A stretch of 64,000 bases of DNA from Paractinoplanes rishiriensis (lineage in GTDB: Bacteria; Actinomycetota; Actinomycetes; Mycobacteriales; Micromonosporaceae), in the NCBI RefSeq assembly GCF_016862375.1, contig NZ_BOMV01000026.1, positions 62,001-126,000 of the forward strand. The letters are read 5' to 3'. Each line of letters starts with the position of its first letter. Within the stretch, counting starts at the first letter, position 1. Positions 38,030 to 48,395 of this stretch are shown here, in pieces. The position numbers and the translations under genes are program-made. Below the pieces are notes generated by a model. It worked only from the letters and a program-made list of their open reading frames with translations. It ran no database searches and was not told the DNA's origin.

Positions 38030-40165
38030 ATGAAGGCTCAGGCTCTCACCCTGCCGAAGTCGAAGAAGTCCACGAAAAGCCCGAATTCGTATGTCGTCGA
38101 GCGCGGTCGTCACCATCCGCTGGGGGCGCATCCGGACGCCGGCGGCATCAGTTTCGCGTTCTTTTCCGAATACGCCACCGGAATCGAACTGCTGCTGTTC
38201 GACACGCACGACGCGACCGAGCCGTTCCAGACAATCACCTTGGACCCGGAGGAAAACCGGAGTTTCGCCATTTGGCACGCATACGTGCGGGGTCTGCAGG
38301 CGCCGGTGTTCTACGCGGTGCGGGTGTTCGGGCCGGAAGGCGACCAGGCCCGCCACGAGGGTCACCGGTTCGACCCGCGGAAGGTGCTGATCGACCCGTA
38401 CGCGCGCGGCCTGGACCGGACGTTGTGGGACCGGGGATCGGCATGCGTGCCCGGCGACAACGTGGCCACCTCCCTGCGGTCCGCCGTCGTCGACCTCGCG
38501 GACTACGACTGGGAGAACGACCAGCCGCTCAACCGCCCGATGGAGGATCTCGTCATCTACGAGATGCACGTCGGCGGGTTCACCCGGTCGCCGAGTGCGC
38601 GGGTGAAGAATCCGGGCACCTTCGCCGCGGTCGTCGAGAAGATCCCGTACCTCAAGGAACTCGGCATCACCGCGGTGGAACTGCTGCCCGTCTTCGACTT
38701 CGACGACAGCGAGGTGCGCACCGTCGGCGACCGCACCCTGACGAATTTCTGGGGTTACAGCACCGCCGCCTTCTTCGCCCCGCACGCGGGCTTCTGCACC
38801 ACTCCCGAGCTGGGCCAGCACGTCCGCGAGTTCCGGGACATGGTGAAGGCGCTGCACCGAGCCGGCATCGAGGTGATCCTCGACGTGGTGTTCAACCACA
38901 CCGACGAGGGCAACCACCTCGGTCCGCTGTTCTCCTTCGCCGGCCTGGACAACCGCAACTACTACTACCTCGACCCGGCCGACCCGCAGTACTACTACGA
39001 CTACTCGGGCTGCGGCAACACCCTGATGGCCAACCACCCGATCGTCACGAAGTTGGTCGTCGACTGCCTGGAGTACTGGGTACGGGAGATGCACGTCGAC
39101 GGGTTCCGGTTCGACGAGGCGGCGGTGCTGAGCCGGGGCGCGGGCGGCGCGATTCTCGATGAACCGCCCGCCATCTGGCAGATCGAGTTGTCCGACGCGC
39201 TGGCCGACACCAAGATCATCGCGGAGGCCTGGGACGCGGCCGGCGCCTACGAGGTCGGCCGGTATCCGGGTTACCGGTGGGCCGAGTGGAACGGCCTGTA
39301 CCGCGACACGATGCGCCGCTTCGTGAAGGGCGAGCCCGGGGTGGCCGGCGCGGTGGCGACCCGGCTGGCCGGCAGCGCCGACCTGTACCAGGCCCGCGGT
39401 CACCGGCCGATCAACAGCATCAACTTCGTCACCTGCCACGACGGATTCACGCTGGCCGACCTGGTGTCCTACAACGACAAGCACAACTGGGCCAACGGCG
39501 AGAACAACCGCGACGGCAACGACGACAACATGAGCTGGAACTGCGGGCAGGAGGGGCCGACCGAGGACGCCGGCATCCGGTCGCTCCGGGAGCGCCAGAT
39601 CCGCAACTTCGCCACCCTGCTGATGATGTCGCGGGGGGTGCCGATGCTGGTCGCCGGCGATGAGATCGGCCGGACCCAGCAGGGCAACAACAACGCCTAC
39701 TGCCAGGACAACGAGATCAGCTGGTTCGACTGGAAGCTGGTCGACGCCAATCCGGCGCTGCTGCGCTTCTGGCAGCGGCTGCTGGCGTTCCGCGCGGCCA
39801 ACCGGGTGCTGCGCCGGCGGGAGTTCTACAACGGACTGTCCAACAGCCGCGGCGTTCCGGACCTGACCTGGCACGGCACCAAGCTCGGCGCCCCCGACTG
39901 GGACGATCCGAACACCCGGGCGCTGTCCTGCACGCTCGGCGGGGAAGGTGCCGAGCCCGACCTGCACCTGATGATGAACATGTACTGGGAGCCGCTCGAT
40001 TTCGAGCTGATGGGAATCCCCGGCCACCGGTGGGCCACCGCCATCAACACCGCCCTGCCGTCGCCCGCCGACATCGTCGAGCCCGGCGCCGAGCAGCCCG
40101 TCGACGGATCGACCTGCTCGGTTCCCGGTCGCAGCGTCGTGGTGCTCGTTTCCCAGCCCTACTGA
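38030..40165 (+). CDS. glgX: glycogen debranching enzyme GlgX (GH13 isoamylase type)
   Basis: 711 residues. Hydrolyses alpha-1,6 branches of limit-dextrin glycogen. An N-terminal CBM48 (about 15-120) is followed by the GH13 barrel with region I DVVFNHTDEG, region II DGFRFDEAA (nucleophile Asp), region III IIAEAWD (acid/base Glu) and region IV NFVTCHDGFTLADL. The downstream YNDKHN and GNDDNMSWNCG stretches are GlgX-specific. ATG 38030 chosen by alignment with the usual N-terminus; the RBS (AGGA) is modest. First gene of a long operon whose other genes are not glycogen genes, so the released sugar may feed a special pathway. Confidence 0.92.
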   Translation: MKAQALTLPKSKKSTKSPNSYVVERGRHHPLGAHPDAGGISFAFFSEYATGIELLLFDTHDATEPFQTITLDPEENRSFAIWHAYVRGLQAPVFYAVRVFGPEGDQARHEGHRFDPRKVLIDPYARGLDRTLWDRGSACVPGDNVATSLRSAVVDLADYDWENDQPLNRPMEDLVIYEMHVGGFTRSPSARVKNPGTFAAVVEKIPYLKELGITAVELLPVFDFDDSEVRTVGDRTLTNFWGYSTAAFFAPHAGFCTTPELGQHVREFRDMVKALHRAGIEVILDVVFNHTDEGNHLGPLFSFAGLDNRNYYYLDPADPQYYYDYSGCGNTLMANHPIVTKLVVDCLEYWVREMHVDGFRFDEAAVLSRGAGGAILDEPPAIWQIELSDALADTKIIAEAWDAAGAYEVGRYPGYRWAEWNGLYRDTMRRFVKGEPGVAGAVATRLAGSADLYQARGHRPINSINFVTCHDGFTLADLVSYNDKHNWANGENNRDGNDDNMSWNCGQEGPTEDAGIRSLRERQIRNFATLLMMSRGVPMLVAGDEIGRTQQGNNNAYCQDNEISWFDWKLVDANPALLRFWQRLLAFRAANRVLRRREFYNGLSNSRGVPDLTWHGTKLGAPDWDDPNTRALSCTLGGEGAEPDLHLMMNMYWEPLDFELMGIPGHRWATAINTALPSPADIVEPGAEQPVDGSTCSVPGRSVVVLVSQPY

Positions 40166-40197
40166 CCAACCTCTCGCGCCAGGCCTTTGGAGGCACT

Positions 40198-47950: not shown

Positions 47951-48395
47951 CGGAAACGTCATCCGCTGGTCGCACGTCGCGCTGAACTGCCGGGACCAGG
48001 CCGCCACCGAAGCCTTCTACCAACGGCTGTTCGGATTCCGCCGGGCCCGGGTCGTGCCGCTGGACAGCGGTGAGATCGTCTTCCTGCGGCAGGGCGACGT
48101 CTATCTGGAACTGTTCCCGTCCACCGCGCCGTCGCGGGTGCAGGGCTCGGCGGACGGCCCGCAGGATCCGGGCGTGACCCGGCACCTGGCGTTCCAGACC
48201 GACGACCTGGACGGCTTCCTGGCGGCCGCCGCCGGCGTCCCGGTCTCGCTCGGGCCGCTGAGCTTCGACGAGGTCATCCGAGGCTGGCGCAGTGTCTGGC
48301 TGACCGACCCGGACGGCCTGGTCGTCGAGGTGAGCGAGGGTTACCACGACGACGAACATCTGGACCGGCACGCCGCGGCGCACGCCGCAGCCTGA
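47943..48395 (+). CDS. VOC (glyoxalase/bleomycin-resistance) family protein
   Basis: 150 residues with the paired beta-alpha-beta-beta-beta units of the VOC superfamily. Metal-ligand candidates are His in SHVALNCRDQ, Glu in LELFPS, His in TRHLAFQTDDL and Glu in VVEVSEGYH. Likely a lyase, isomerase or dioxygenase on a small metabolite. Last gene of the nine-gene operon, followed at once by a strong hairpin. Confidence 0.87.
   Translation: MADGNVIRWSHVALNCRDQAATEAFYQRLFGFRRARVVPLDSGEIVFLRQGDVYLELFPSTAPSRVQGSADGPQDPGVTRHLAFQTDDLDGFLAAAAGVPVSLGPLSFDEVIRGWRSVWLTDPDGLVVEVSEGYHDDEHLDRHAAAHAAA

Follow-up and report, generated by a model that had tools for sequence, protein, structure and literature searches.

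Gene content and boundaries of the locus

Within the window, the 64,000-nucleotide stretch of Paractinoplanes rishiriensis DNA that we analyzed, nine co-directional genes occupy positions 38030-48395 on the + strand, and a bestrophin-like gene upstream constitutes a tenth member. This upstream gene (37067-37846, + strand) codes for a bestrophin-like membrane protein (PF14023, Pfam 162 bits) and ends 183 nt before the GlgX gene (38030-40165), which codes for an isoamylase-type glycogen debranching enzyme that passes the curated TIGR02100 cut-off (698.3 versus 640.9 bits). The GlgX gene is followed by one for an AGE-fold epimerase/isomerase-like protein with a STAS domain, referred to here as AGE-STAS (40198-42399; PF07221, 56.2 bits, cut-off 23.4), and by genes for two DJ-1 proteins, the ThiJ-like or type 1 glutamine-amidotransferase-like DJ-1a (42396-43259; PF17124, 56.9 bits) and the PfpI-type DJ-1b (43256-43864; PF01965, 57.3 bits). 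The remaining genes code for a benzoylformate-decarboxylase-like ThDP-dependent enzyme with three TPP Pfam domains (43861-45546), a SnoaL_4/NTF2-fold protein (45556-45987; PF13577, 28.5 bits), a SnoaL_2/NTF2-fold protein (46007-46384; PF12680, 69.5 bits), a GMC-family FAD oxidoreductase (46397-47950; PF00732/PF05199, 141.6/131.7 bits) and a VOC/glyoxalase-fold protein (47943-48395; PF00903, 44.6 bits). The family names of the window genes are consistent with both Pfam and NCBIfam.

A preliminary description of this DNA had reported nine genes on one strand with short or overlapping junctions and a perfect hairpin at the end of the operon, and we observed all of these. Specifically, the GlgX stop codon ends at 40165 and the GTG start of AGE-STAS at 40198 follows after a gap of 32 nt, while AGE-STAS and DJ-1a overlap by ATGA at 42396, DJ-1a and DJ-1b meet at a GTGA at 43256, and DJ-1b and the ThDP enzyme at an ATGA at 43861. 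Gaps of 9 nt (ThDP to SnoaL_4), 19 nt (SnoaL_4 to the GTG start of SnoaL_2 at 46007) and 12 nt (SnoaL_2 to GMC) come next, and the GMC and VOC genes overlap by 8 nt. The 15-bp hairpin (48397-48430) lies between the gene block and a convergent - strand gene; its stem arms (48397-48411 and 48416-48430) pair with no mismatch, and the stability of the 48390-48445 fold (-45.5 kcal/mol, z -5.4) was equalled by 0 of 200 shuffles. The hairpin has no T run and is absent from the terminator scan list. Upstream of the block, a sigma-70 scan found no promoter, and a short TACGnT-like element near 37903-37913 is common to the aligned actinobacterial upstream regions (nine rows, comprising the window and eight of ten others tried). 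A stress-sigma promoter could not be assigned in this nine-row alignment or by the sigma-70 scan.

Recurrence and composition of the gene set

A single scan identified at least 534 relatives of the AGE-STAS protein. We studied 89 loci from 12 named phyla: nine on plasmids and 80 genome loci, the latter for the best 80 of these at least 534 relatives. The neighborhood counts given below therefore favor close relatives and are also tilted towards cyanobacteria (42/89). Phyla were assigned by us using record titles and taxonomy lines; two loci have no phylum, and locus L094, titled as a Bifidobacterium breve MAG, is probably a mislabelled bin. The weak matches at locus L070 score <30 bits.

At a threshold of E 1e-6, GlgX is found near the epimerase-STAS gene in 83/89 loci (79/89 above 600 bits), DJ-1b in 63, the ThDP enzyme in 39 loci from seven named phyla (35 with >500 bits) and DJ-1a in 38. 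VOC is present in 30 of the 89 (25 with >150 bits), GMC in 25 (16 with >400 bits), SnoaL_4 in 23 and SnoaL_2 in 10. Recurrence in distant genomes, which the preliminary description had named as the check on its proposal, is evident from 18 loci in 8 phyla that carry at least six of the seven partners; the epimerase-STAS and ThDP genes, whose lasting separation elsewhere would have counted against that proposal, occur together in the 39 loci noted above. A Deinococcus plasmid contains all nine genes, with STAS as a separate gene. The idea of a nine-gene set holds as regards recurrence but not as regards a fixed composition, the nine genes being the complete version of a cassette whose content varies: among the 66 loci with full flanks, six have one of the seven partners and 18 have two, and 13/89 loci have no partner other than GlgX.

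Gene arrangement is far more constant. In the 66/89 loci with full flanks, strand agreement with the epimerase gene is 63/63 for GlgX, 49/50 for DJ-1b, 31/33 for ThDP and 30/31 for DJ-1a. The GlgX and AGE frames lie on one strand and within 400 nt of each other in 74/83 loci, and of the 31 loci with both DJ-1a and ThDP, 27 have them as a close pair, each time with DJ-1a upstream. Note that these distances refer to stop-to-stop frames and leave room for one small gene, such as DJ-1b, which separates DJ-1a from ThDP in the window. The bestrophin-like family adjoins the module in 19/86 loci, on the opposite strand in some relatives. Spread is patchy, with 12 of 150 in the window genome's own family and 14 of 194 in cyanobacteria.

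The return of this gene set in distant genomes makes it more than a chance association. Chance neighborhood is ruled out by this recurrence together with a control, in which we inspected 14 further GlgX loci of these genomes, 12 of which are without any partner family; of the other two, one has only a weak and distant ThDP match (85 bits) and one is a second copy of the module. We are nearly certain that the module is real and selected. The locus is best explained as one instance of a so far unnamed module that seems to be mobile between genomes. Sequence comparison shows that GlgX and AGE-STAS (STAS fused or encoded by a neighboring gene) are its coupled core and that a second block of DJ-1a and ThDP, with DJ-1b, VOC, GMC and SnoaL, joins this core in many loci.

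Conserved residues, domains and regulatory neighbors

The module GlgX retains D362 (85/85), E399 (81/81) and D471 (79/81), which we take to be the GH13 catalytic Asp, Glu and Asp. It falls outside the clade that unites 12 of the 14 additional GlgX proteins of these genomes (tree support 1.0), and an ordinary GlgX operon is ruled out by this tree and by the neighbor genes. In tree distances, GlgX and AGE show a correlation of 0.73 (80 rows, species kinship ignored), while those of GlgX and AGE against DJ-1b and ThDP correlate weakly (Pearson 0.06-0.16, rank 0.01-0.34, species kinship again ignored). A PADLOC scan for anti-phage systems yielded nothing useful, with one amylase-type match (GlgX to the GlgB model, 73.5 bits) and none for the nine other proteins.

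The AGE-STAS protein has an N-terminal beta region, an AGE-fold domain at approximately residues 100-550 and a C-terminal STAS domain at approximately 612-716. A fold search with its structure model (pLDDT 84.4), which essentially tests the barrel and barely covers the N-terminal region and the STAS part, returned alpha/alpha-barrels with VIA Z 35.5 (3gt5, rmsd 2.6 over 375 residues) and 34.1 (3wkf); superposition on 3gt5 and 5x32 gave an rmsd of 2.6-2.7 over 375-377 residues. Across 87 sequences 120/616 aligned positions are strictly invariant, 105 of them within the barrel, and these include R164, H390, K456, W458, W459, E462, H525 and H531. R164, H390 and H531 (each 87/87) are presumably the catalytic Arg and two His of the AGE barrel, with roles taken from cellobiose 2-epimerase work; R164 and H390 are aligned to known AGE proteins and H531 is equated by motif, by eye. 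At His+3, where 8bry, 8h1k and two Nostocales AGE proteins have Glu (GHxxE), the module proteins have Lys393 in 87/87, and the usual epimerase chemistry can therefore not be taken for granted. Glu534 is likewise invariant, versus the Arg of the FHVPR motif in the two Nostocales proteins, a comparison made by eye because hhalign of the AGE profile against these two proteins produced no more than a weak, local match with the register shifted. The protein also misses the AGE equivalog cut-off (NF052547, 20.1 versus 600).

In the window protein taken by itself, the STAS domain scores under its Pfam cut-off (24.1 versus 29.2 bits), but the profile of the family matches SpoIIAA structures (1auz, E 4e-5), and the C-terminal part of the model is alpha/beta, consistent with STAS. 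A STAS match is present in 81/86 epimerase frames, and split forms have a separate STAS gene nearby. At the position that we assume, following SpoIIAA/RsbV, to be the phosphorylatable Ser/Thr site, the window has Pro and 42/82 fused domains have Ser/Thr; the acceptor Ser is kept by all five separate STAS proteins. Annotated STAS/ATPase/SpoIIE genes lie beside the split form in plasmid loci, with ATPase and/or SpoIIE genes near the module in Streptomyces, Deinococcus and Runella plasmids. A receiver-reductase family (27/86 loci) and a cNMP-HATPase (cNMP-kinase) family (24/86), noted in cyanobacteria, were, like the MBL, ankyrin and EthD families, each identified from one representative.

Among the partners, DJ-1a keeps C162 and E17 (both 43/43), E17 probably being the Glu partner of the nucleophile Cys, and DJ-1b keeps E23 (60/60), C123 (61/61) and H124 (61/61). 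E51 (35/35) and H74 (34/36) of the ThDP enzyme align with the LQE and LH residues of 4q9d and 6a50, and we take them to be the activator Glu and active-site His of benzoylformate decarboxylase; the enzyme misses the cut-off for that family (NF005485, 333.4 versus 493 bits). The GMC protein is similarly under the MftG cut-off (TIGR03970, 253 versus 387 bits), and a mycofactocin system was rejected on this protein alone. Additional genes in some loci code for an MBL-fold family (9 loci), for Nif11-like peptides (leader_Nif11, 28.2 bits, slightly under 32.3), and for two GMC proteins and two alpha/beta hydrolases, and in Gloeothece the ThDP gene is followed by genes for a KAS III-type synthase and a methyltransferase. 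Three plasmids have alpha-glucan genes by annotation (glycogen synthase; GlgE, GlgB and maltokinase; GlgE and TreS). The alpha-glucan neighbors that we re-scored are all under the NCBIfam cut-offs: 27.9 versus 302 for the 'glycogen synthase', 225 versus 375 for the 'maltokinase', 241 versus 425 for a GlgC-like protein, and 45 versus 875 for the 'GlgE', whose best model is a non-GlgE one.

A proposed pathway, its alternatives and known systems

The gene set could specify a sugar pathway that has yet to be described, perhaps with a tie to stress. Our best explanation, to which we assign a probability of roughly 0.37, is glycogen debranching deployed under stress with remodelling of the released sugars, tuned by STAS. 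Under osmotic, drying or redox stress, GlgX would cut glycogen branches and the AGE domain would take the released malto-oligosaccharides (or glucose) and epimerize or isomerize the free reducing end via an enediol. GMC and SDR enzymes would then oxidize or reduce the AGE products, the ThDP enzyme would join or cleave the resulting keto sugars, and the DJ-1, VOC and sometimes MBL-fold proteins would remove or use dicarbonyl intermediates. STAS, with partner kinases/phosphatases where present, would tune the AGE step or place AGE in a complex. Enzymatic remodelling of the reducing ends of glycogen products is itself a tentative proposal, and we give stress deployment of the module an even chance. 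The preliminary description had guessed at an undescribed system, one that might make or break a keto or enediol metabolite derived from sugar or might link storage glycans to stress, and this guess is supported in part: the gene set does recur, while the neighboring regulators only suggest a stress link. The cold/osmotic-induced genes lti2/lti46 and OrrA of Anabaena are a possible lead.

Three other explanations were weighed. Sensor-STAS proteins signal in this manner in stressosomes, and by analogy the AGE barrel could bind the maltodextrin or glucose that GlgX sets free, with STAS relaying the signal to an ATPase/phosphatase pair and the other genes being the output. The near-constant presence of STAS, fused or as a nearby gene, agrees with such a sensor, as do the partner-switching genes that adjoin the split form, the intact acceptor Ser of the separate STAS proteins and the invariant Lys393 and Glu534 substitutions; the 105 invariant barrel positions, which include both motif His, nevertheless seem excessive for a sensor, and with the acceptor residue in just 42/82 fused domains and replaced by Pro in the window, we consider this reading unlikely. 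A biosynthetic cluster, where GlgX gives the sugar and ThDP, GMC, SnoaL, EthD, VOC and SDR proteins build a dedicated small molecule (an osmolyte, a reductone antioxidant or a natural product, for example), seems somewhat improbable. Proteins of the SnoaL, EthD, GMC and VOC types often act in tailoring, and the Nif11-like peptides, the two GMC and two hydrolase genes and the Gloeothece synthase and methyltransferase fit with it, but a scaffold-making enzyme is absent among the recurring families identified (a subset of all families) and the 13 loci with no partner other than GlgX argue against it. Finally, genes of use in one condition could travel together as a stress island with no single pathway, as variable content, patchy spread, plasmid location and the weak correlation between the two blocks would suggest. 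This is distinctly unlikely given the near-complete strand agreement, the overlapping window genes, the closeness of GlgX and AGE and the uniform order of DJ-1a and ThDP.

Glycogen debranching is usually regarded as simple fuel release, and a second kind of GlgX with AGE-STAS and a carbonyl block across phyla and plasmids suggests another use of glycogen in many bacteria. A more specific claim, which we regard as doubtful, is that at least 12 phyla share an undescribed glycogen-branch pathway that runs from a dedicated GlgX to a STAS-controlled AGE enzyme with the swapped Lys393/Glu534 pair, whose keto-sugar product would pass into new ThDP/DJ-1 carbon-carbon chemistry and end in a new stress metabolite. 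Regulation by partner switching might also be connected to sugar state through the module. The motif GHNLK ... YHSxE provides a signature for naming these proteins, and the GlgX/AGE-STAS and DJ-1a/ThDP pairs are clear test objects. A literature search covering titles and abstract openings, with subscription literature outside its scope, found no paper on this gene set. The term-matched passages of PMC13131328 and PMC12157317 do not mention glgX, debranching, epimerase or lti2, and in the matched parts of the mycobacterial gene tables of PMC4694148 and PMC5445863 the matching words stand at unrelated genes.

Compared with known systems, the module GlgX shares its catalytic triad residues with isoamylase-type debranching enzymes (TIGR02100; 2vnc, 7u39, 2wsk and isoamylase 1, 9j60) and aligns over its full length with isoamylase 1, but differs from known GlgX in lying outside the clade of 12/14 other same-genome GlgX proteins and in being tied to AGE-STAS. 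The AGE-STAS protein resembles the AGE superfamily (cellobiose 2-epimerase, Runella glucose 2-epimerase, mannose isomerase and YihS) in its barrel (Z 28-35.5) and presumably in its motif Arg and two His; it differs by the added N-terminal region and STAS domain, by Lys393 for Glu and Glu534 for Arg, and by an identity of 12-19% in structural alignments. The module DJ-1 proteins keep the catalytic-type Cys and Glu of PfpI/YhbO, ThiJ DJ-1 proteins and glyoxalase III but are below the NCBIfam cut-offs tested, and occur as two different paralogues in one carbohydrate block. The ThDP enzyme aligns over its full length with benzoylformate decarboxylase (4q9d, 6a50), including the conserved Glu and His, despite missing the NCBIfam cut-off. 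Finally, the STAS profile and the nearby ATPase/SpoIIE genes are like those of SpoIIAA/RsbV partner switching, whereas here STAS sits on a sugar-enzyme fold and the acceptor Ser/Thr is present in only 42/82 fused domains, the window having Pro.

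The nine-gene block and its recurrence

Re-reading of the window sequence (62001-126000 of its contig) confirmed the nine plus-strand genes at 38030-48395 (GlgX, AGE-STAS, DJ-1a, DJ-1b, ThDP, two SnoaL, GMC and VOC) and their junctions as given in the preliminary description. The block, which lies in a 10.9 Mb genome and has a 15-bp perfect hairpin at its 3' side, has a G+C content of 68.3% versus 70.4% for the whole window. A bestrophin-like gene upstream of GlgX (37067-37846) shares its plus strand; in several relatives this gene is on the opposite strand, and GlgX may therefore be transcribed from a promoter of its own. 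The short element TCACCTACGCT at 37903-37913, upstream of GlgX, has TACGnT-like counterparts in several relatives and is possibly a promoter -10 candidate.

Scanning 84,980 species genomes yielded at least 534 confirmed relatives of the epimerase-STAS protein (AGE-STAS, 40198-42399). With the same query, tblastn matched 21 plasmid records, 17 of them with query coverage of 80% or more; identity to the query is 50-57% in the 16 best, which come from Gemmobacter, Nostoc, Gloeothece, Gloeocapsopsis, Runella, Streptomyces and Deinococcus. GlgX adjoins the epimerase or is one gene off in all six annotated plasmid neighbourhoods first read, and five of the six have DJ-1, type 1 glutamine amidotransferase-like and ThDP genes; the Nostoc edaphicum plasmid neighbourhood is annotated without any of these three.

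Partners were searched at E 1e-6, using profiles made from the window proteins, in 89 loci comprising nine plasmid loci and the best 80 of the at least 534 relatives, the nearest among these 80 being Paractinoplanes durhamensis (91% identity). GlgX was present in 83 of the 89 loci (79 with a strict score), DJ-1b in 63 (62), ThDP in 39 (35), DJ-1a in 38 (33), VOC in 30 (25), GMC in 25 (16), the SnoaL_4 type in 23 (21) and the SnoaL_2 type in 10 (10). Among the 66 loci whose flanks are complete, a copy was on the epimerase strand for GlgX in 63/63, DJ-1b in 49/50, ThDP in 31/33, DJ-1a in 30/31, VOC in 23/24, GMC in 16/18 and SnoaL_4 in 15/17. The best test named in the preliminary description, recurrence of the gene set in distant genomes, was borne out by 18 loci that hold at least six of the seven partners and represent eight phyla (Actinomycetota, Cyanobacteriota, Chlorobiota, Chloroflexota, Pseudomonadota, Planctomycetota, Bacteroidota and Deinococcota). 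GlgX aside, the profile search found no partner in 13 of the 89 loci; some of these are short contigs, or their remaining genes may be elsewhere.

Among 296 genomes from the window's phylum, the epimerase-STAS protein was found in one, the window's own (E 1e-30). It occurs in 12 of 150 genomes of its family (E 1e-60), including 5 of the 15 same-genus genomes among those listed, and in 14 of 194 cyanobacteria. This patchy spread, together with plasmid carriage, points to horizontal movement of the module.

Other features were observed in the window. On the minus strand, a gene run at 32945-36922 has third-position G+C below most of the window, and three of its genes tested had no Pfam match. 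Convergent minus-strand genes at 48441-51606 are SnoaL, SDR and weakly GH88-like; among the loci examined, the SnoaL gene has a counterpart only in L016 (78% identity), the SDR matches (30-38%) look generic and the GH88-like gene has no match. The protein encoded at 52086-53450 has a second domain of vanadium-chloroperoxidase type (33.6 bits versus a cut-off of 27).

Two gene blocks and the GlgX control

Gene order and tree distances indicate that a GlgX/AGE-STAS core has likely been joined repeatedly to a DJ-1a/ThDP block. GlgX and epimerase frames lie at most 400 nt apart on one strand in 74 of the 83 loci holding both, with GlgX preceding in 67 of these 74; ThiJ-like DJ-1a (42396-43259) and benzoylformate-decarboxylase-like ThDP (43861-45546) are close in 27 of 31 loci, DJ-1a coming first every time. 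Pairwise tree-distance correlations are 0.73 for GlgX and AGE (80 rows), 0.59 for DJ-1a and ThDP (30 rows), 0.48 for DJ-1b and ThDP, 0.41 for AGE and DJ-1a, 0.06-0.19 for GlgX with DJ-1b, DJ-1a or ThDP, and -0.04 for DJ-1a and DJ-1b. Rank correlations are similar, ThDP giving 0.30-0.34 with GlgX and AGE.

As a control, a GlgX search at E 1e-40 covered ten genomes: that of the window and those to which nine of the loci belong. Identity to the window GlgX is 57-70% for the other nine module GlgX and 45-52% for 14 further GlgX from these genomes. A profile search of about 9 kb per side found no partner family at 12 of these 14 loci, a weak, distant ThDP match (85 bits) at one, and at another, L134, a second module copy with AGE, STAS and DJ-1b. 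L134 is a second locus in Nostocales cyanobacterium HT-58-2, arranged STAS-GlgX-AGE plus DJ-1b. The tree built from 94 GlgX proteins groups 12 of the 14 as one clade with support 1.0; those of L134 and of L133, which lacks partners, are placed outside it.

Nif11-like leader peptide genes are annotated in locus L130 at 16164-16824 (28.2 bits versus a cut-off of 32.3), and a small unannotated gene family in L010, L029, L030 and L033 was taken as similar to them; neither NCBIfam nor Pfam matched the one member tested. These small genes sit near GMC, EthD and ThDP genes, and a RiPP-like module variant is possible. An ankyrin-repeat family occurs in 12 module loci (L026 at 5468-6919 and 11 others), one tested member also having a SnoaL domain.

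The epimerase-STAS protein and neighbouring regulators

The predicted AGE-STAS structure (pLDDT 84.4, pTM 0.81) shows a beta region at the N-terminus, a barrel that matches AGE enzymes at Z 28-35.5, and an alpha/beta C-terminus on which the STAS profile matches fall. Of the 616 positions aligned across 87 sequences, 120 are strictly invariant, and 105 of these fall in the barrel; the invariant residues include Arg164, His390, Lys456, Trp458, Trp459, Glu462, His525 and His531 (numbered from the GTG at 40198). Where four known AGE proteins (8bry, 8h1k and two from Nostocales) have GHxxE, the module proteins have GHNLK, and where the two Nostocales proteins have FHVPR, the module proteins have YHSxE. 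The two motif histidines are catalytic in cellobiose 2-epimerase. The residue exchange in the module proteins may reflect either changed chemistry or a role in binding. The module protein is the sole PF07221 match in the window genome.

In 81 of 86 loci the epimerase frame itself contains the STAS match. Plasmids of Runella, Streptomyces and Deinococcus encode STAS as a gene of its own and carry a second STAS 3' of GlgX, variously with ATPase and SpoIIE genes. At the phospho-acceptor position, 42 of the 82 fused domains have Ser or Thr (the window's, with Pro, is counted in the 82), and all 5 separate ones have Ser. A receiver/pyridine-nucleotide-disulphide reductase family (27/86 loci, 26 of the 27 cyanobacterial) and a cNMP-binding HATPase family (24/86, all cyanobacterial) are mostly directly 3' of the epimerase. 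The STAS domain and these partner-switching-type, receiver/reductase and cNMP-HATPase neighbours suggest that the module may be controlled by redox, osmotic or general stress.

Possible chemistry and relation to known systems

Key residues are kept in GlgX, DJ-1a, PfpI-type DJ-1b (43256-43864) and the ThDP enzyme, and glyoxalase-like types are frequent in the module: VOC, the two DJ-1 proteins and an MBL-fold family, the last present in nine loci. Three plasmids have annotated alpha-glucan genes close to the module, those re-scored falling below NCBIfam cut-offs; in Gemmobacter, a GlgC-like protein adjoins the module (241 bits versus a cut-off of 425). These kept residues, glyoxalase-like types and alpha-glucan neighbours fit a putative path from glycogen via free reducing ends and enediol or dicarbonyl intermediates. 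A literature search found no description of the gene set or its AGE-STAS family, and the block merits a name and experimental study. As a kind of system, a carbohydrate operon close to stress-type regulators is already known.
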